Positions 25,382 through 34,375 of a stretch of 64,000 nucleotides of DNA are shown piece after piece. The notes beneath the pieces are model-generated. The model saw only the letters and a program-made list of their open reading frames with translations. It did no database searches and was not told the DNA's origin. The DNA comes from Rhodobacterales bacterium HKCCE3408 (lineage in GTDB: Bacteria > Pseudomonadota > Alphaproteobacteria > Rhodobacterales > Rhodobacteraceae), in the NCBI GenBank assembly GCA_015689705.1, contig WVSN01000006.1:124001-188000 (forward strand), read 5' to 3'. The translations under genes were made by a program, and so were the position numbers. The first letter of the stretch is position 1. The number at the start of each line of letters is the position of its first letter.

Positions 25382-27040
25382 ATGCTGGCTTTCGCCATGC
25401 CCGCCGAGGTGCCGGATACGCTCGCGGCGGCCCGGGATGCCTATCGCAGAGGTGACTGGGCTGACGCCACCGCTCTTTTCCTGAGCGCCGATGCCGATAT
25501 CGGGTTGTCTCCAGACGATCTCGAGGACCTCGTCTGGGCGGCGGGAATTTCGGCAAACGACGCCCAGATGCTTACCGCGCTCGAGCGTCTCTATGCCCAT
25601 CATTCCGCAGCGGACGACCACGCCGAAAGCGCGCGGACAGCCTTCTGGAGCGGCCTGCGCAACATGATGATCGGCGAGGTCGGGCTAGGCTCGGGCTGGC
25701 TGCAACGGGCGGCAAAGCACGCCGAACAGACCGAAGAGACGTGCGTGCAGCGCGGTTATCTGCTTCTGCCGCAGGTCTTCATGCACCGCGCGAAAGGTGC
25801 GTACGAAGACGCCGTCGCTGTCGCCGACCGCGCCCTGCAGTTTGGCGAGACCTGCGGCGATCCCGACCTCGTCGCACTGGCCGGAAGCCTGAAGGGCGGG
25901 CTGCTGTTCCGGCTCGGCCGGATCGACGAGGGGTATCTGCCCATCGACGAGACCATGCTGCTGGCCAATGGCGGGAAGCTGTCGCCGATCGTCACCGGCG
26001 TCGTCTATTGCGAGATCGTCGCCTCCTGCTGCCGCGTGCTGGAGATGGTGCGCGCCCGCGAATGGACCGCAATCCTGAACGACTGGTGCCGCCAGAACCC
26101 GCAAGCCAAGGCCTTCAACGGCGTCTGCCAGATGCACCGCGCCGAAGTGCTTCAGCTCGAGGGCCACTGGACCGAGGCGTATTCCGAAGCCGAGCGCGCG
26201 GGTCTCGGCCTGATCGGAACGACCGAACGGACGGCGCGGGCCAATGCGGCCTATCGGCGGGGCGAGATCCTCCGGCTGCGGGGCCGTCTGTCCGAGGCAG
26301 AGACCGAATACCGCCTCGCAGGGGAAATCGGCATCGACCCGCAGCCGGGGCTGGCGCTTCTGAAGCTGGCGGAGGGTCGCGCCGCCGAGGCCGCGTCGAT
26401 GATCGAACGGGCGCTCCGGACAGCCGGGGACATGCCCCGCAAGGCCGCGCTTCTGCCGGCTGCAACGGATATCCGCATCGCTGCCGGCGACCTCGACGCT
26501 GCCGGGGCCGCCTGCGCCGAAATGGAGGACATCGCCCGGCATTACGGGACCGAAGTGCTGATGCGGGTGGCCGACCAGGGCGCCGGCCGGCTTGCCTCGG
26601 CCCGGGGCGATCATGTCGCGGGGATCGAGGCGCTGACCCGTGCGCGCCGCTACTGGTCGGATTTCGGTGCGCCGTATCTGGAGGGCTGCCTTCGCCTCGA
26701 CATCGCGCGCGCGCTCATCGAACTGGGCGACACGGAAAGCGCGCGGATCGAACTGGAAGCGGCCGAAAAGACCCTGGCCGACCTCGGCGCCGATCCGGAC
26801 CTGGCAGGTGCACGGGCCGCGCTGTCGGAGCTGACCGCGCCACGGGGCGGCGGTCTGACGCATCGCGAACGCGAGGTGCTGCGCATGATGGCGGAGGGCG
26901 GAACCAATCCGCAGATCGCCGCCGAGCTCCGACTGAGCCCGAAGACGGTGAACCGGCATGTCGAAAACATCTTCGGCAAGCTCGGAGTCGGATCGCGCGC
27001 CGCCGCGGTCGCGGTCGCACTGAAATCGGGCGACATCTGA
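25382..27040 (+). CDS. LuxR-type regulator with TPR-like sensor region
   Basis: A 552-residue protein whose first 480 residues are helical, TPR-like repeats (for example AARDAYRRGDWADATALFLSA and LRLRGRLSEAETEYRLAGEI). It ends in a LuxR/FixJ-type helix-turn-helix (LTHREREVLRMMAEGG, LSPKTVNRHVENIFGKLGV). There is no ATP-binding domain as in MalT. A second start at 25397 (MPAEVPDT) is equally possible; neither has a clear ribosome binding site. It precedes a flavin monooxygenase with a perfect palindrome between, so it probably controls that gene. Confidence 0.85.
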   Translation: MLAFAMPAEVPDTLAAARDAYRRGDWADATALFLSADADIGLSPDDLEDLVWAAGISANDAQMLTALERLYAHHSAADDHAESARTAFWSGLRNMMIGEVGLGSGWLQRAAKHAEQTEETCVQRGYLLLPQVFMHRAKGAYEDAVAVADRALQFGETCGDPDLVALAGSLKGGLLFRLGRIDEGYLPIDETMLLANGGKLSPIVTGVVYCEIVASCCRVLEMVRAREWTAILNDWCRQNPQAKAFNGVCQMHRAEVLQLEGHWTEAYSEAERAGLGLIGTTERTARANAAYRRGEILRLRGRLSEAETEYRLAGEIGIDPQPGLALLKLAEGRAAEAASMIERALRTAGDMPRKAALLPAATDIRIAAGDLDAAGAACAEMEDIARHYGTEVLMRVADQGAGRLASARGDHVAGIEALTRARRYWSDFGAPYLEGCLRLDIARALIELGDTESARIELEAAEKTLADLGADPDLAGARAALSELTAPRGGGLTHREREVLRMMAEGGTNPQIAAELRLSPKTVNRHVENIFGKLGVGSRAAAVAVALKSGDI

Positions 27041-27048
27041 CTTCCGTC

Positions 27049-27066
27049 ATGGGTCGAATGACCCAT
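27049..27066. promoter_or_regulatory. Candidate LuxR-regulator operator upstream of the monooxygenase
   Basis: ATGGGTC and GACCCAT form a perfect 7-base inverted repeat around GAAT. It starts 8 bases after the LuxR-type gene stop and ends about 90 bases before the monooxygenase ATG. Symmetry and placement suit a dimeric LuxR-type protein; a weak terminator is the alternative. Confidence 0.5.
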
Positions 27067-27158
27067 AGAGGTTTTCCGGCGACATGGGGTCTTCTCACGA
27101 TGAAGGGGTCCCGGCGCGGTCCTACGCTCGTCCTCGACACCAATCGAGGAGAGACGCA

Positions 27159-28382
27159 ATGCAATCCGACACGCTTCCCCGGTCCCGGTCCGGCCGCGAT
27201 CCCGCAGACCTCGTCGAGGCGGGCAACCTGATCCGAACGGGGGCTGACGCCTTCGATGGGACGGATACGACCGTCTCTGCCAGTAGCGGGCCGGAACGGG
27301 TGCCGGTCGCCGTGATCGGCGCCGGTCAGGCCGGCCTTTCAGTCAGCTACCATCTGAAACAGCACAGGATCGAACACGTGGTTCTCGACGCGGCCGAGCG
27401 CATCGGGGACGTCTGGCGCAACCGGTGGGACTCCCTGAAACTCTTCACTCCGGCGAAGTTTGACGGGCTCGACGGCTATCCCTTCCCCGCGCACCGCGAC
27501 ACATTCCCGACGAAGGACCAGATGGCCGACTATCTCGAGGCCTATGCGGCGAAGTTCCGGCTTCCGGTCAGAGTGGCGACGCCGGTCGTCAGGCTCAGCC
27601 GTTCCGGCGCGGGCTACCGGATCGAAACCACGCAGGGCACGATCGAAGCCGGGTCCGTCGTTGTCGCGGCGGCCGGCTACCAGGCGCCGAGGATTCCGGA
27701 TTTCGCGACCGGACTGGACGACGAGATCGTCCAGCTCCACAGCCGGGCATACCGCAATCCCTCCCAGATCCCGGACGGCCCCGTTTTGCTTGTCGGGGCC
27801 GGCAATTCCGGGGCGGAGATCGCCATGGACCTCGCCAAGACACACGAGGTCTGGCTGGCAGGGCGACCGGTCGGGCACATTCCGTTCGACATCGCCGGGT
27901 TCATGGGGCGGAAGCTTCTGGTCCGGGTCGTCGTCCGGGGCATGTTCCACCACCTGCTGACGATGCGGACGCCGCCGGGCCGCAAGTTCCGCGCCAAGAT
28001 GCAGAACCGCGGAATGCCGCTGATCCGGACACGGCCCGGCCAGCTCGAGCGTGCCGGGGTGAAACGCATCGGCCGGATCACCGGGTTGCAGGGCGGCCTG
28101 CCAGTGGCCGAGGACGGCAAGCGCATCGATTGCCGCACCGTCGTCTGGTGCACCGGATATCACCCCGGTTTCGACTGGATCGACCTGCCGGTTCTCGGCA
28201 GCGGCGGACATCCCCGGCACCGGTTCGGCAAGGCCACCGATATCGACGGGGTCTATTTCATGGGCCTGCATTTCCAGTACGCCGTCTCCTCGACCATGGT
28301 GTCTGGTGTCGGTCGGGACGCGCGCCGCATTGCCGGCTGGATCGCAGCCGATCAGCGGGTCCGGTCCTCCGCTTCGGGTTGA
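27159..28382 (+). CDS. NAD(P)/FAD-dependent monooxygenase (flavin-containing, CzcO/YUCCA-like)
   Basis: A 407-residue flavoprotein with an FAD-binding GAGQAG motif at residues 54-59, a middle sequence LKLFTPAKFDGLDGYPFP, and a second dinucleotide site LLVGAGNSGAEIAMDLA for NADPH. It ends with VVWCTGYHPGFDWI, a conserved late motif of these enzymes. Members oxygenate or oxidise small substrates. About 45 variable N-terminal residues precede the first motif; the ATG at 27159 is supported by GAGGAGAG. Regulation by the upstream LuxR-type protein is likely. The substrate is not known. Confidence 0.85.
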   Translation: MQSDTLPRSRSGRDPADLVEAGNLIRTGADAFDGTDTTVSASSGPERVPVAVIGAGQAGLSVSYHLKQHRIEHVVLDAAERIGDVWRNRWDSLKLFTPAKFDGLDGYPFPAHRDTFPTKDQMADYLEAYAAKFRLPVRVATPVVRLSRSGAGYRIETTQGTIEAGSVVVAAAGYQAPRIPDFATGLDDEIVQLHSRAYRNPSQIPDGPVLLVGAGNSGAEIAMDLAKTHEVWLAGRPVGHIPFDIAGFMGRKLLVRVVVRGMFHHLLTMRTPPGRKFRAKMQNRGMPLIRTRPGQLERAGVKRIGRITGLQGGLPVAEDGKRIDCRTVVWCTGYHPGFDWIDLPVLGSGGHPRHRFGKATDIDGVYFMGLHFQYAVSSTMVSGVGRDARRIAGWIAADQRVRSSASG

Positions 28383-28436: not shown

Positions 28437-28473
28437 CCTGCGCAATCTGGATAAATGGTGCGCTTTGCGGCTT
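28437..28473 (+). promoter_or_regulatory. Candidate AraC/XylS operator, copy 1
   Basis: Two 15-base direct half-sites, TGCGCAATCTGGATA and TGCGCTTTGCGGCTT, are separated by 5 bases. Both fit TGCG-N6-GG-like XylS-type boxes. The same 37-base layout recurs at 30477-30513 with 27 identical positions. It lies in the 355-base gap before the outer-membrane protein gene, about 265 bases ahead of its ATG. The rest of that gap shows no gene. Confidence 0.6.
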
Positions 28474-28737
28474 TCCCGGTATCCGGCCCGATCCTAACAC
28501 TCAGCCCGAGTAACGAGTGAACAGATTGCCGGCTTGGCTGGAACTTGAAGGTGCAAGGCGATGCCGGACCGCCGCGGATCCTGATAAAACTGGCCCGCTT
28601 TTGCCCAGGTCCCCAAACGAGGCAACGGCGGTGCAGAGGGTCCGCGGTATTTCGGTATGGCGGATTGTCCGGGTGGTGCCATGGCGACCCGTGACAGGAA
28701 ACCAGCGCCTGAACGAATGATTTTGAGGAGAAAACAG

Positions 28738-29355
28738 ATGAGCAGAATGGCACTCGCCGCCGCCCTTTCCATCGCCGCCGCACCCGCGCTGGCCGGAGGG
28801 CTCGACACCCCTGCCCCGACGCCTGTCGTCGTCGCACCGGCCGCCGCGCCTGTGACCGACTGGTCCGGCGCCTATGTCGGTCTGCAGTACGACACGATTG
28901 CCGACGGTTTTCTCGACAACGGTGTCGCCGGCTCTTTCACCGTAGAAGGCCAAGTCTACGGCATATTCGGAGGATACCGGTTCGATTTTGGCCAGTTGGT
29001 GGTCGGCGGCGAAGTCGATTACATGATGGGCGACGGCGACATCACCGCCGGCGCTGCGGTAACGGCCGTCGATTACGACCGGCTCCTGCGCGTCGGCATC
29101 GAAGGCGGTTTCGATCTTGGCCGGGCGCTCGTCTACGGGACCGCGGGCTATGCCGATATCGACATTTCCGCCGGAGCGGGCTCGCTGGACAGCAGCGGAT
29201 ACTTCTACGGCCTTGGCGTCGACATACTTGCGACCGACCGGGTCGTGATCGGTGTCGAGGCGCTGCGTCACCAGTTCGACGATTTCGACGGCCCTGCCGC
29301 CGGTGCGGAGCTCGAGGTGACGACGGTCGGCGTAAACGTCGGCTTCCGGTTCTGA
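28738..29355 (+). CDS. Outer-membrane beta-barrel protein
   Basis: A 205-residue protein with a signal peptide ending near PALAGG. A short Pro/Ala/Val-rich linker leads to a barrel with alternating strands, beginning DWSGAYVGLQYDT and including FGGYRFDFGQLVVGGEVDY, and a C-terminal phenylalanine (VGVNVGFRF), the usual signal for outer-membrane assembly. It resembles small OmpA-like/Opa-like barrels of alphaproteobacteria. GAGGAG before the ATG fixes the start. An AraC-type box lies upstream and the AraC gene downstream. Confidence 0.87.
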   Translation: MSRMALAAALSIAAAPALAGGLDTPAPTPVVVAPAAAPVTDWSGAYVGLQYDTIADGFLDNGVAGSFTVEGQVYGIFGGYRFDFGQLVVGGEVDYMMGDGDITAGAAVTAVDYDRLLRVGIEGGFDLGRALVYGTAGYADIDISAGAGSLDSSGYFYGLGVDILATDRVVIGVEALRHQFDDFDGPAAGAELEVTTVGVNVGFRF

Positions 29356-29398
29356 CCGGAAAGCGACGGCCCGTCACGCGGCCTGATCCGACAACTGC

Positions 29399-29423
29399 AC
29401 GCCCGTCGCAAAGCGGCGGGCGT
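29399..29423 (+). terminator. Hairpin after the outer-membrane protein gene
   Basis: ACGCCCGTCGC pairs with GCGGCGGGCGT over 11 bases (one G-U) around an AAA loop, about 43 bases after the stop codon. The T-run is poor. Its strength and location suggest the end of a single-gene transcript. Confidence 0.6.
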
Positions 29424-29515
29424 ATGTTCGATGTGACCGGTCGCATGTTCATGCTATCTTTCGGTTAGCTTCGGCCTCACATGAATTCTCAGGTTCAGAT
29501 TTCGGCATTCGGCCC

Positions 29516-30457
29516 ATGGGCAAGTTCACACTGATCGGACGGTACGGGCAGAACAGCTGCGGCTCGAAGCATCCGCTTTTCTCCAGTCAAAGCCCACTCC
29601 GGCTGCACGACAACGCGGGCGGTCGGGCCGAAGTGTCACGCGCGCTGCTCGGCGAGATGGCGGTCGGGCGCGTCTCCTCCAGCGGCCATGACGTTACCGT
29701 CCGGGAAAGCGTCCACCCCACGATTCTCGTGCCACGCTACGGGACGGTCAGGACGGAAATCGACGGCCGGTCTGTCGCGGCAGAGAACGGACAGGGGCTC
29801 GTGCTCGGCCGCGGTCGGCGCGACACACGGGTCGAGCCAGACTCCGAGGGCCGATTCCTCGCCTACGTTTTTCTTCTGCCCTCGGACTCCTTCGACGCCC
29901 TTCCGCTCGTCGAAAGCCGTCGCGGCGTGATACTGGAGTCCGGCCGGTCCGGGAACGTGCGCCAGGCGCTTGCGCTGTCCCGGATGCTCGCCGATCAGCT
30001 CGAGGACGGGTCCTCGCTGCTCGATCGCCCCGGCGCCTCGCGAAGCTGGTTCGAGCTTCTGTCCTCCGCCCTGTCGGACGGAGCGCGCGAGATGGCGGAC
30101 GAGCTGCAGGATCTCCGCGTCGACGGCACCGCCGCGCAGATCCACGTGCGACGGGCCGAGGAATTCATGACCGCCCATTTCGACGAGGTGTTCACCACGT
30201 CCGATGTGGCGCGGGTGCTCGGCATCTCGATCCGCACGCTGGAGACTGCATTCCGGCAGGTCCGCGACGAATCCCCCGCCCGGATCCTCAACCGGATCCG
30301 GCTGAACGCGGCGCGACGGGCCCTGCTGTCGCCCGATGGCCCGGCCACTGTGACCGAGGTCTGCATGGAGTGCGGCTTCGGCCATCAGGGCCGCTTCAGC
30401 GCCGCCTACCGCGCCGCTTTCGGCGAACTCCCCTCGACGACCATCAAGCGCCGGTAG
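29516..30457 (+). CDS. AraC/XylS-family transcriptional regulator
   Basis: A 313-residue regulator. The N-terminal 200 residues resemble the AraC_binding_2/cupin-like sensor (VHPTILVPRYGTVRTEIDG, GQGLVLGRGRR). The C-terminal domain carries two helix-turn-helix motifs, FTTSDVARVLGISIRTLETAFR and a second with TEVCMECGFGHQGRFSAAYR, where the usual F-x-x-x-S-x-F-x-R-x-F core is slightly changed. It lies between two matching XylS-type boxes, so it is the likely activator of the outer-membrane protein and of the envelope genes downstream. No obvious ribosome binding site precedes the ATG. Confidence 0.87.
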   Translation: MGKFTLIGRYGQNSCGSKHPLFSSQSPLRLHDNAGGRAEVSRALLGEMAVGRVSSSGHDVTVRESVHPTILVPRYGTVRTEIDGRSVAAENGQGLVLGRGRRDTRVEPDSEGRFLAYVFLLPSDSFDALPLVESRRGVILESGRSGNVRQALALSRMLADQLEDGSSLLDRPGASRSWFELLSSALSDGAREMADELQDLRVDGTAAQIHVRRAEEFMTAHFDEVFTTSDVARVLGISIRTLETAFRQVRDESPARILNRIRLNAARRALLSPDGPATVTEVCMECGFGHQGRFSAAYRAAFGELPSTTIKRR

Positions 30458-30476
30458 GCCGCACCAGCCGGAACGG

Positions 30477-30513
30477 CCTGCGCAAATCGGACAATCACTG
30501 CGCATAGCGGCTT
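30477..30513 (+). promoter_or_regulatory. Candidate AraC/XylS operator, copy 2
   Basis: Half-sites TGCGCAAATCGGACA and TGCGCATAGCGGCTT lie 5 bases apart, the same geometry as the copy before the outer-membrane protein gene. It begins 20 bases after the AraC gene and ends about 95 bases before the GlsB-like ATG, a position suited to activating that promoter. Confidence 0.6.
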
Positions 30514-30607
30514 GCGAGACATCCCCGCCAATCGCGAAAGATTATTTCAACGTGCTTTCCCGTCCGTCCGTTCGGGGAAAGCGCGGGGCGATCGGGGGAG
30601 GATCAAA

Positions 30608-30967
30608 ATGAAGCCAATTCTGTCAGCGCGCCTGCCAGCCATCGCGGCGCTTGCCGCTCTGCCGACGGCGGCATTCTCTCAGGATGCCGCGCAAGCCGTC
30701 GGAGCCGGCGTCGGCCTGGTGATCGGACTTCTCATCGCCATCGTCGTCGGCGCCGTGGTCGGCTGGATTGCCAGCCTGATCGTCGGCGGATCCGGCGGCA
30801 GCTTCTGGGTCGACGTCCTGGTCGGGATCGGAGGGTCGCTGATCGCCAGCTACCTCTTCCCGGCGATCGGCATCCCTCTTGGCGGTGGCGCGATCGGCGC
30901 CTTCATCGCCGCCGTGATCGGGGCCGTGATCCTTCTGCTCATCATTCGACTGGTCCGGCGCGCCTGA
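30608..30967 (+). CDS. GlsB/YeaQ/YmgE-type stress-response membrane protein
   Basis: A 119-residue protein. After a signal-like first helix (to about AAFSQ) it has three glycine-rich membrane helices: VGLVIGLLIAIVVGAVVGWI, a middle helix around ASYLFPAIGIPLGGG, and a last helix ending in basic residues. This is the Transgly_assoc (GlsB/YeaQ/YmgE) pattern, a family linked to stress but without a known activity. A GGGGGAGGA site precedes the ATG at 30608. The cleavable-looking N-terminus is an addition compared with E. coli YeaQ. Confidence 0.85.
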   Translation: MKPILSARLPAIAALAALPTAAFSQDAAQAVGAGVGLVIGLLIAIVVGAVVGWIASLIVGGSGGSFWVDVLVGIGGSLIASYLFPAIGIPLGGGAIGAFIAAVIGAVILLLIIRLVRRA

Positions 30968-31008
30968 CCCTCACTGCCCACGCCCCCGCCTATTCAGGAG
31001 ACATGGAC

Positions 31009-33066
31009 ATGCAAGACCGAAGCCCGTTGGGCCTGATCTGCCGACTCGCCCTCGCCGCGCTGTGCGCCACAGTCCTCGTGACGAGCGCATCCGCCCAGTC
31101 GGGCCTGCGTCGCGAACATGTCGAAATGGCGGGCTGGACCGGCAGCGTGATCGACGGTGTGGTCGAGGGCCGGGATACCGTCCTCTACGAGATCGCCGCG
31201 GCTGCGGGCGATCAGCTCACCGTGCGCCTGCATTCGCCCAACACGGCCGCCTATTTCAACGTCTACGCTCCGGGCCGGGGCCCCGGGGAAGAGGCGCTTG
31301 CCGTGGGCAGCCTGACCTCCGAGATGATGCCGGAGCTCAACGAGTTCGTGGCGACAGTGCCGGCCGCCGGAACCTACACGGTTTCCGTCTACCTGTTCCG
31401 GGCCGCCGCCCGCGCGGGCGAGGTCGCACCCTATTCGATCGAGATCGACCTGCTGTCGCCGTCGGACGACGCGGATTCGGCAGCACCGCTCGTTTTCCAG
31501 GTGCGGACCCGCTCTCCCGAGGGGCATCTGAACGTTCACACTGACCCATCGACGGACGCGCCGCGCATCGGTCGCTATCCCAACGGCACCATTCTCCGCG
31601 ATATCGGCGGCTGCCGCCCCGGCGACGGTCGCGACTGGTGCGAGGTCATGGCTGAAGGCGGCGGACTGGCGGGCTACGTGGCCCGCGAGTTCCTCGCCCC
31701 GGTCTTCCGCCGGGCCGGAACGCCCACGGCGCCCGTCCGCTCCTCCTCGGGGCTGCCGGCGCACCCGCCGTCGCCGACGATCCCGCCTGCCGTTTCGGCG
31801 GCTTCGGATCACTTCCACGTGCACCTCGACAATCCGCAGGGACATCTGGGGGTTCATGCCGGACCGTCCGTGCACACCGTTCGCGTCGGACGCCTGACCG
31901 ACGGGTCCGACCTTCGCAACATCGGCGGCTGCGTCCGGAACGAAGGCCGGACATGGTGCGACGTGATGCAAGCGGGCGGAGGCGTTTCGGGGTGGGTCGC
32001 GGCTGAATACCTGCGGGACGGGTACGCGCCCGCGGCCCATGTCACGGCGCCGGCCGCGGCACCGATGGCGGACTTCGCCGACGGTCTGTCGGGCGGGCCG
32101 GACTACTGGCGGGTCAGCGTGAACCGCAGCGGCAGCTCGCTCCGCATGCACAGCCAGCCTTCGACCGACGCGCCGATCGTCTCGCGTCTTCCGGATGGCA
32201 GCACGCTGAGGAACGCAGGCGGGTGCCGGATGAGCGATGGCGAACGGTGGTGCTTCGTCAGCTCGGTCTCGGGTCACGCAACCGGATGGGTCGCCGGTGA
32301 GTTCCTCGTCGAAGGGTCAGCGCCCGGCATCGCGCGACATATCCCGGCGCCACCGGTGGCATCGCCTGCCCCGCTTGAAGCGCCGACGACAGCCGCCGCC
32401 TCGGGCCCGCAATACGACGCGAGCGGGACACTTGCCTGCGTGCGCGACCGCGATGCGGCCGAGGCCCAGTGCAGCTACGGTGCCGTCCACGAAGGCAGCG
32501 GCAATGGATATGTCCTGATCAACTGGCCCGACGGCGGCAGCCGCGCCATCTCCTTCGAGGGCGGCATGCCGGTCTATTTCGATCAGTCGCAGGCCGACGG
32601 CGATGCCGAGATGACCGTGACCCGCTCGGGCGACGATTTCGTCGTCTTCATCGGCGAGTCCCGGTTCGTCATTCCTGCCGGTCTCTTCGCTGCGTCAGCC
32701 GCCGGGACGGCGACCCAACTGCCTCTGGTCCCGCCGCCGGCCGGACCGGATGATGACGCACTGGTCGCCGGTACGGAGTTCAACGCGACGGGACAGGTGT
32801 CCTGCATCCGCGACCAGGACGCGGCCGAAGCCATGTGCGACGCCGGTGTCACCCGCGACGGCGATGGCTCGGGCTTCGTCACGATTTTCTGGCCCGACGG
32901 CGGCAGCCGCGTCCTGTTCTTCGAGGACGGCACGCCGGTCTACTATGACGAGTCCGAGGCCGATGACGGCGCGGAGATGACGGTGACGCAGGTGTCGGAC
33001 ACCTTCGTCGTCTTCGTCGGTGCCGCTCGGTTCGTCATTCCCGAATTCTTCCTGACGGGTGGCTGA
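31009..33066 (+). CDS. Secreted multidomain protein: PPC-like, three SH3b-like and two C-terminal repeats
   Basis: A 685-residue exported protein. A signal peptide (to about SASAQ, residue 30) precedes a PPC-like beta domain (31-155). Three SH3b-like repeats follow (about 160-222, 265-330, 365-430), each with LNVH/LGVH/LRMH early and a GGC...WC cysteine pair that could form a disulfide. Proline/alanine linkers separate them. The last 220 residues hold two copies of a domain marked CVRDRDAAEAQC or CIRDQDAAEAMC, WPDGGSR and FVVFIGESRFVIP. SH3b domains often bind peptidoglycan or proteins. The ATG at 31009 is preferred because AGGAG lies 8 bases upstream. Confidence 0.75.
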   Translation: MQDRSPLGLICRLALAALCATVLVTSASAQSGLRREHVEMAGWTGSVIDGVVEGRDTVLYEIAAAAGDQLTVRLHSPNTAAYFNVYAPGRGPGEEALAVGSLTSEMMPELNEFVATVPAAGTYTVSVYLFRAAARAGEVAPYSIEIDLLSPSDDADSAAPLVFQVRTRSPEGHLNVHTDPSTDAPRIGRYPNGTILRDIGGCRPGDGRDWCEVMAEGGGLAGYVAREFLAPVFRRAGTPTAPVRSSSGLPAHPPSPTIPPAVSAASDHFHVHLDNPQGHLGVHAGPSVHTVRVGRLTDGSDLRNIGGCVRNEGRTWCDVMQAGGGVSGWVAAEYLRDGYAPAAHVTAPAAAPMADFADGLSGGPDYWRVSVNRSGSSLRMHSQPSTDAPIVSRLPDGSTLRNAGGCRMSDGERWCFVSSVSGHATGWVAGEFLVEGSAPGIARHIPAPPVASPAPLEAPTTAAASGPQYDASGTLACVRDRDAAEAQCSYGAVHEGSGNGYVLINWPDGGSRAISFEGGMPVYFDQSQADGDAEMTVTRSGDDFVVFIGESRFVIPAGLFAASAAGTATQLPLVPPPAGPDDDALVAGTEFNATGQVSCIRDQDAAEAMCDAGVTRDGDGSGFVTIFWPDGGSRVLFFEDGTPVYYDESEADDGAEMTVTQVSDTFVVFVGAARFVIPEFFLTGG

Positions 33067-33109
33067 TCCCTGCCGCCAACCGCCACAACTGCTACAGGAG
33101 TTGCCCAGT

Positions 33110-33754
33110 ATGTCGCCAAGATCGTTGCTGTTCGCGCTTGCGATCGCCCTGCCGGCGCCGGCCATCGCGCAGAACGTGGGTCCGCTTCTCGACCGGTGCG
33201 GCGCCGTCGCCCGCCAGTATTTCGGCGCGCCCTACGCTCAGTCGAACATGCGCTACAATGGCTCGCGCGTTGATGGGACACAGACGGTCGGCGGCGAGCT
33301 CTACATGTCCGGCCGCGCGCCCTACATCGCCTGCGCGTTCCGTGCCGATGGCCGCCAGACGGAGTTCTTCATCGATGGCCAGGACCAGACCGCCTACCTT
33401 CGCAGCTCCGGCGGATCGGGCGGCGGCACCTCGGCCGGGTCGACCGATACGGTCCGCGTCCAGTTCGCTGCCGGTACTTCCGGGGCGGAACTGAGCGACA
33501 GCCTCGCCCCGGGTGCGAGCCGCCGCTACGTCCTTGGCGCCGGGGACGGCCAGTTCCTGTACGTGCGCGTCGCGCCCTGGAACGGGTCGCTTGAATACCA
33601 GATCTTCAACCCCGACAATTCATTCCTGCTCGACCTGATCCCGGCCAATCGGGAGTATCGCGGGCAACTTTGGCAGTCCGGCGACCACGTCGTCGAGGTG
33701 GTCAACCGGACGAATGCCGTGGTGTCCTACAACGTGATCTTCGGCATCGACTGA
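33110..33754 (+). CDS. Secreted protein with a two-cysteine domain and PPC-like domain
   Basis: A 214-residue exported protein (signal to about PAIAQ). The N-terminal domain has LLDRCGAVARQYFGAPY and, about 47 residues later, a second cysteine in YIACAFRADGR. A Gly/Ser linker leads to a C-terminal beta domain (VRVQFAAGTSGAELSDSL, SGDHVVEVVNRTNAVVSYNV) like PPC domains. The first domain resembles the following lipoprotein, and the second resembles the N-terminal domain of the gene upstream. The start is set by AGGAG nine bases before the ATG. Function unknown. Confidence 0.7.
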   Translation: MSPRSLLFALAIALPAPAIAQNVGPLLDRCGAVARQYFGAPYAQSNMRYNGSRVDGTQTVGGELYMSGRAPYIACAFRADGRQTEFFIDGQDQTAYLRSSGGSGGGTSAGSTDTVRVQFAAGTSGAELSDSLAPGASRRYVLGAGDGQFLYVRVAPWNGSLEYQIFNPDNSFLLDLIPANREYRGQLWQSGDHVVEVVNRTNAVVSYNVIFGID

Positions 33755-33800
33755 TGCCGGGGCCCCAACCTTCACCCAGACCTCAACGAAAGGACCATCA

Positions 33801-34103
33801 ATGAAACCGATCCTAACGACCGTCTTCGCGATTTCGTCGCTTGCGATGTTGTCCGGCTGCATCGACGACAGCGCGCCGCCGCCGGCCGGCAACGATCCCG
33901 AGGCCGCCGCGCGCGCCGCCTGTGTGCGCGACGTCCGATCGACGACCGGGAACCCGGACGTCGTGGTGTCCAGCTCGTCCTTCTCGGAAGCCGGCACCGA
34001 GGTCATCCTGACTGTCGGCGGCACCGGAACCTGGCGCTGCATCGCCTACCGCGACGGCAGCACGGCCGGAATTGAATCGCTGACAAACGAGGGCTTCCTC
34101 TGA
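33801..34103 (+). CDS. Small lipoprotein with two-cysteine domain
   Basis: A 100-residue lipoprotein with a signal and lipobox LSGC at residues 17-20. After an acidic, proline-rich linker the mature part has AAARAACVRDVRSTTG and, later, GTGTWRCIAYRDGSTAGI. This C-x(about 55)-C pattern ending in W/Y-x-C-x-A-x-R-DG is also seen in the preceding protein. An AAAGGA site lies before the ATG. It is probably anchored in the outer membrane as part of the same envelope gene set. I do not recognise a named family. Confidence 0.75.
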   Translation: MKPILTTVFAISSLAMLSGCIDDSAPPPAGNDPEAAARAACVRDVRSTTGNPDVVVSSSSFSEAGTEVILTVGGTGTWRCIAYRDGSTAGIESLTNEGFL

Positions 34104-34375
34104 AAAAATGGCCGTGCAGGGCGGCGTTCTGGATCTTCGCGTTTCTCTACGCAGCCGCGCTCGCCCTTTTCGCAATCGGAACATTCGGCCTGTTCGGCCA
34201 GGAACGCGACCCTCTGTCGGGCGTGTTCCTGGTCCCGATCGGCCTGCCCTGGAACCTGCTCGGCGGATCGCTCCCCGAGGCGGCGTTGCTCTGGGTCGGG
34301 CTCCTGGCGCCTCTCGTCAACCTGCTGCTGATCGTCGGGCTCTGCCGGCTCCTGGCATCGCGGAAGGCGTCCTGA
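34100..34375 (+). CDS. Small membrane protein with CTG start, overlapping the lipoprotein gene
   Basis: A 91-residue open frame starts at CTG (CTGA overlaps the lipoprotein stop) and is preceded by GAGGG six bases upstream. The protein begins MKKWPCRAAFWIFAFLYAAA, has three hydrophobic stretches (the third APLVNLLLIVGLCRLL), a short acidic loop GQERDPLSG, and a basic tail. No ATG, GTG or TTG lies in frame between the upstream stop codon (34073-34075) and this point. The hydrophobic periodicity and codon bias argue that it is real. It is the last gene of the envelope run. No family assigned. Confidence 0.6.
   Translation: MKKWPCRAAFWIFAFLYAAALALFAIGTFGLFGQERDPLSGVFLVPIGLPWNLLGGSLPEAALLWVGLLAPLVNLLLIVGLCRLLASRKAS

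Follow-up and report, generated by a model that had tools for sequence, protein, structure and literature searches.

The question raised by this locus is whether two similar 37-bp elements on either side of an AraC-family regulator gene serve as operators of that regulator and, if so, what kind of regulon they would define. The elements lie in a stretch of 64,000 nucleotides, here called the window, at the following positions:

28437-28473, + strand: predicted operator 1, with half-sites at 28439-28453 and 28459-28473, sequence CCTGCGCAATCTGGATAAATGGTGCGCTTTGCGGCTT
30477-30513, + strand: predicted operator 2, with half-sites at 30479-30493 and 30499-30513, sequence CCTGCGCAAATCGGACAATCACTGCGCATAGCGGCTT

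The initial annotation had described them as sharing 27 of 37 bases without a gap, each composed of two direct 15-bp half-sites of the form TGCG-N6-GG separated by 5 bp, and both the coordinates and this architecture proved exact, the half-sites starting 20 bp apart in the two elements. The next-best ungapped match to either element, searched on both strands of the whole window, reached 23 of 37 identities, and over all 47 contigs of the genome (3.9 Mb) the pattern TGCGCAN4GGN8TGCGCN5GG was matched with zero mismatches at operators 1 and 2 only. The similarity between them stops at the element edges, so they did not arise by recent duplication of a longer segment. The comparison with XylS made at the outset was apt, since XylS half-sites are 15-bp direct repeats of the form TGCA-N6-GGTA (PMC5481539) and the BenR promoter carries TGCG-N6-GGATA plus TGCA-N6-GGATA, 5 bp apart and just upstream of -35 (PMC1360089). 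The window elements present the paired direct 15-bp half-sites, 5-6 bp apart, that define operators of this type; the proximal half-site in the window ends in GGCTT, which deviates from TGC(A/G)-N6-GG.TA.

The genes around the elements, as identified by Pfam, were those initially proposed, with an outer-membrane barrel gene after operator 1, a run of envelope genes after operator 2 and the AraC-family gene between. On the + strand the order is operator 1, barrel, regulator, operator 2 and a tight co-directional run (30608-34375):

28738-29355, + strand: outer-membrane beta-barrel protein gene (Pfam OMP_b-brl, 3.1e-14)
29516-30457, + strand: AraC/XylS-family regulator gene (HTH_18, 3.5e-22), conserved in relatives
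30608-30967, + strand: gene for a small membrane protein of Transglycosylase-associated type (Pfam Transgly_assoc, 3.2e-11)
31003-33066, + strand: gene for a 687-aa protein, predicted to be exported, with PliG and SH3_3 domains and two C-terminal repeats (phmmer, 4dzg; SH3_3, 1.3e-18)
33110-33754, + strand: gene for a protein, predicted to be exported, that ends in a divergent PliG domain (profile search against PDB)
33801-34103, + strand: small lipoprotein gene of the cassette (56% homologue in L053; lipobox-like N-terminus)
34100-34375, + strand: gene for a small membrane protein, probably starting at CTG (57% identity to an L053 cassette protein, 8.8e-26)

The end of operator 1 is 264 bp from the likely ATG of the barrel gene, and operator 2 starts about 20 bp past the stop codon of the regulator. 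Homologues of the 30608-30967 product (53-64%) are found in the related loci L054, L096 and L173. The CTG of the last gene overlaps the preceding stop (CTGA) and is its sole plausible start, which explains why this gene is absent from standard, mechanically produced ORF lists. Consensus promoter and terminator scans of the locus gave nothing useful. Adjoining operator 1 on its upstream side is a LuxR-type regulator gene with an ArsO-like flavin monooxygenase gene after it (window 25382-28382), a pair that was not noticed in the cassettes of relatives.

A paralog 95% identical to the barrel gene lies on contig C34 of the same genome (L002, 1501-2118) without an operator and with an upstream region unrelated to that of the window copy, so that each copy is probably controlled differently. 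In the other genomes examined the cassette does not include the barrel gene, which seems to have been recruited behind operator 1 in the window genome specifically. A strong hairpin without a T run (29398-29424) separates the barrel and regulator genes; transcription from operator 1 reaching the regulator past this hairpin would give positive feedback.

The operator proposal had been tied to conservation of the 37-bp element in orthologous loci and, when this was examined, the element recurred across relatives. Tandem elements of the same form were found in the loci of six of the eight first-round relatives, with the consensus TKCGCAWWNCGGATA-N5-TKCGCAWWNCGGATAG within the same bacterial family, and in L052, L054 and L057 the element is just behind the regulator and in the same orientation. 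First-round loci L056 and L059 showed no recognisable site, though L056 carries PliG/SH3 genes. A weight matrix trained on 16 half-sites from the first loci was then run on another 15 regulator loci, which a profile search had turned up and which were all outside the training set, and 12 of them contained a half-site pair of at least 20 bits, the chance expectation being 0.004 per 20 kb in first-order Markov sequences, or about 0.05 over the 15 loci. One of these 12 sites (L103) is within coding sequence and probably spurious; no recognisable site was found in L089, L097 (a short contig) and L100. Sites were also present in L053 and L055, which did not belong to the training set either. For the most part, the sites of relatives precede cassette genes.

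A degenerate version of the pattern was searched in 18 whole genomes (about 77 Mb) and yielded 13 zero-mismatch matches, 12 of them at regulator loci and the remaining one on a separate contig of genome G431, before a conserved cassette gene that is followed by a PliG/SH3 gene. An unlinked match with one mismatch in G107 precedes a PliG-like gene; other one-mismatch matches were near the level of the control pattern and were not counted. The operator code also predicts unlinked targets, as in these two genomes. None of 13 PliG/SH3-homologue loci in genomes with no regulator detected nearby reached 20 bits, absence of the regulator meaning here absence in a search at E<=1e-30; one of these genomes, G034, has a distant regulator homologue elsewhere (L059). 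The PliG/SH3 locus L170 of G180 did reach 20 bits and was considered as an exception to the link between site and regulator, and was dismissed as such because a regulator homologue adjoins its site. Within the window genome, no site was found at the C34 barrel paralog or at a cluster on contig C25 (L161, 7270-9622) made of a PliG-like gene, a lipoprotein gene whose product is 74% identical to a cassette lipoprotein of a relative, and a 63% barrel paralog; this cluster has no nearby regulator of this kind.

These distributions bear on the idea that a different AraC/XylS-family protein occupies the operators, the neighbouring gene being a bystander. The half-site code is indeed widespread in the AraC/XylS family, but the sites accompany the locus of this regulator in diverged genera, and PliG/SH3 genes lack them where no regulator of this kind was detected, so that we regard a bystander gene as very improbable. 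The compact locus of regulator plus targets that had been put forward for the window is supported by the conservation of its sites, by their co-occurrence with the regulator and by their usual position before cassette genes.

The sequences behind the sites provide a property that was not used in finding them. When the 60 bp following 26 sites were aligned, A prevailed at +23 (17 of 26) and T at +27 (16 of 26), both signals exceeding the maximum of every shuffle (p_max 0/2000 position shuffles); C at +24 and G at +1 were also present. A(+23) and T(+27) correspond to positions 2 and 6 of a putative -10 hexamer. Such a fixed distance predicts an overlap between the second (proximal) half-site and the -35, amounting to about two bases of the -35 hexamer if the spacer is 17 bp long. 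Placement at -35 with a matching -10, as in XylS/BenR-type promoters, is seen over the 26 sites and is weak at operator 2 of the window, for which the candidates are:

28495-28500, + strand: candidate -10 of promoter 1, TAACAC, read from the sequence at a position conserved over the 26 sites
30535-30545, + strand: weak candidate -10 region of promoter 2, with CGAAAG at the conserved distance and, 5 bp beyond it, the alternative GATTAT

Judged from these putative promoters, the arrangement is that of a XylS/BenR-type activator. Repression from the two operators is conceivable, given the predicted overlap of the proximal half-site with the -35. However, activators at Pm and Pben use this layout, in which direct repeats end at -35 and the promoter lies downstream, and the sites have poor-looking -35 hexamers, as activator-dependent promoters do, which makes a repressor improbable in our opinion. 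That the operator pair results from chance similarity or local duplication, which the presence of just two copies in the window might suggest, is ruled out by the conservation of the element, its uniqueness in the genome, the -10 spacing and the end of the identity at the element edges.

The regulator itself has the C-terminal double helix-turn-helix of the AraC/XylS family, HTH_AraC (3.5e-8) being found in addition to HTH_18. The N-terminal ligand-binding domain AraC_binding_2 scored 17.9 bits in the window protein, below the cut-off of 27, and was found in 5 of 10 members (best 5.6e-8). Of 199 genomes sampled from the same family, nine, counting that of the window, have a close relative of the regulator, and a search of 385 genomes drawn from the whole class (E<=1e-45) found none outside this family. 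In the regulator tree, the site-bearing regulators do not all form one clade; that of the window has sites in 11 of 12 rows. The relative in G431 (L092, 9248-10152, - strand) is split into two frames with an internal TAG and may be broken or misassembled, and two strong sites remain in that genome. In G062 (L052, 9009-11112, - strand) there are two tandem diverged regulator copies with a large regulator-like gene adjoining. For the DNA-binding half, the closest curated family is AndR, the regulator of anthranilate 1,2-dioxygenase (NF041686), but the match (112.3 bits) covers the C-terminal half only and is far from the full-length cut-off of 350 bits for an equivalog, and the cassettes found here, unlike the AndR system, have no dioxygenase genes.

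With regard to the targets, residues 48-149 of the 31003-33066 product match PliG, a periplasmic protein that inhibits g-type lysozyme (PDB 4dzg; phmmer, E=2e-12), and retain the R-x-x-A-R stretch of the sequences of the PliG structures; SH3_3 domains and then two repeats 56% identical to each other follow. For the C-terminal domain of the 33110-33754 product, a six-sequence profile (A2) gave the four PliG structures as its four best PDB matches (9.7e-6 to 0.022). This divergent domain is devoid of the R-x-x-A-R stretch, so that inhibitor activity may have been lost there. Homology to PliG is therefore found in both products; the 687-aa multidomain protein is not the small single-domain type, and a form of single-domain size exists in L053 (143 aa). 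A structure model of the C-terminal repeat (pLDDT 83) had no confident PDB match (lowest E-value 0.014, TM-scores no higher than about 0.5), PliC appearing among the matches at E 0.17, and a model of the divergent PliG domain (pLDDT 62) was too poor to use. In the cassettes of relatives, PliG, SH3, two lipoprotein types and small membrane proteins are recurrent in shuffled order. Several loci (L055, L057, L058, L094 and L167) also share, near the cassette, unannotated proteins of about 480, 310 and 240 aa, that of 310 aa being a calcineurin-like phosphoesterase. The operator code gives clues to the function of several conserved unannotated proteins.

Operators and regulator might be linked as proposed and the regulon still be unrelated to lysozyme, the PliG-like and SH3 domains acting as adhesive or surface-binding modules and the inducer being metabolic or aromatic, as for XylS and BenR. 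In line with this, the closest curated regulator families serve aromatic catabolism (AndR), the PliG domains sit in multidomain SH3 proteins, one of them being strongly diverged, and a barrel gene is predicted to be co-regulated. On the other hand, no catabolic genes recur in the cassettes of relatives; the recurring combination is one of two PliG-type domains with SH3 domains and small envelope proteins. We consider such a regulon a serious alternative, though an unlikely one.

We believe that the most plausible explanation, to which we give a probability of about 0.7, is that the locus encodes a dedicated AraC/XylS-type activator with a local PliG-domain regulon for peptidoglycan protection. 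From the sites and their conservation, the linkage of regulator and genes, the promoter geometry and the PliG homology, we infer that the regulator (29516-30457) would bind the two tandem half-site operators, each abutting and slightly overlapping the -35 of a promoter facing downstream. Operator 2 would then switch on the operon 30608-34375, with its PliG-domain proteins (one fused to SH3), lipoprotein and small membrane proteins, and operator 1 the outer-membrane barrel recruited in the window genome. Once exported, the PliG-domain products would inhibit lysozyme or the cell's own lytic transglycosylases, the likely purpose being protection or control of peptidoglycan against such activities. 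A wider reading, to which we would give slightly less than even odds, is that of a regulon in this bacterial family in which an attack on the cell wall, or a cue from a host or competitor, is sensed by the activator, which then deploys modular PliG-SH3 proteins, lipoproteins and membrane proteins to shield peptidoglycan from foreign lysozymes or to restrain the cell's own lytic enzymes. In either case, what began as the observation of two sites becomes a testable regulon with one regulator family, an operator code, a promoter geometry and recurring PliG-domain envelope proteins.

Compared with known systems, the regulator and the operator type are already known, and the regulon appears undescribed as far as could be checked: in the open-access literature, which is weak evidence of absence, no paper linked PliG with an AraC-type regulator or a lysozyme inhibitor with Rhodobacteraceae. 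The locus resembles XylS/Pm and BenR/Pben in having a local AraC-type regulator and, at -35, a direct repeat of a 15-bp half-site (TGCA or TGCG-N6-GG(N)TA) with 5-6 bp in between, but differs in that T or G is allowed at position 2 and in that the targets are PliG/SH3 envelope genes instead of benzoate-induced aromatic-degradation operons. The known PliG structures (4dxz, 4dy3, 4dy5 and 4dzg) are single-domain proteins of about 110 residues, whereas here the domain is fused to SH3 and other modules and encoded in an operon. Transcriptional control of lysozyme-inhibitor genes has precedents, since pliG of E. coli is repressed by Zur (PMC4219657), and Ivy and MliC, which are also weak inhibitors of lytic transglycosylases, belong to the Rcs regulon (PMC10139938). 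Zur and Rcs, however, are global regulators of zinc or envelope stress, whereas a dedicated neighbouring AraC-type activator is predicted here; if this is true, the cell would sense a specific cue before deploying its lysozyme inhibitors.
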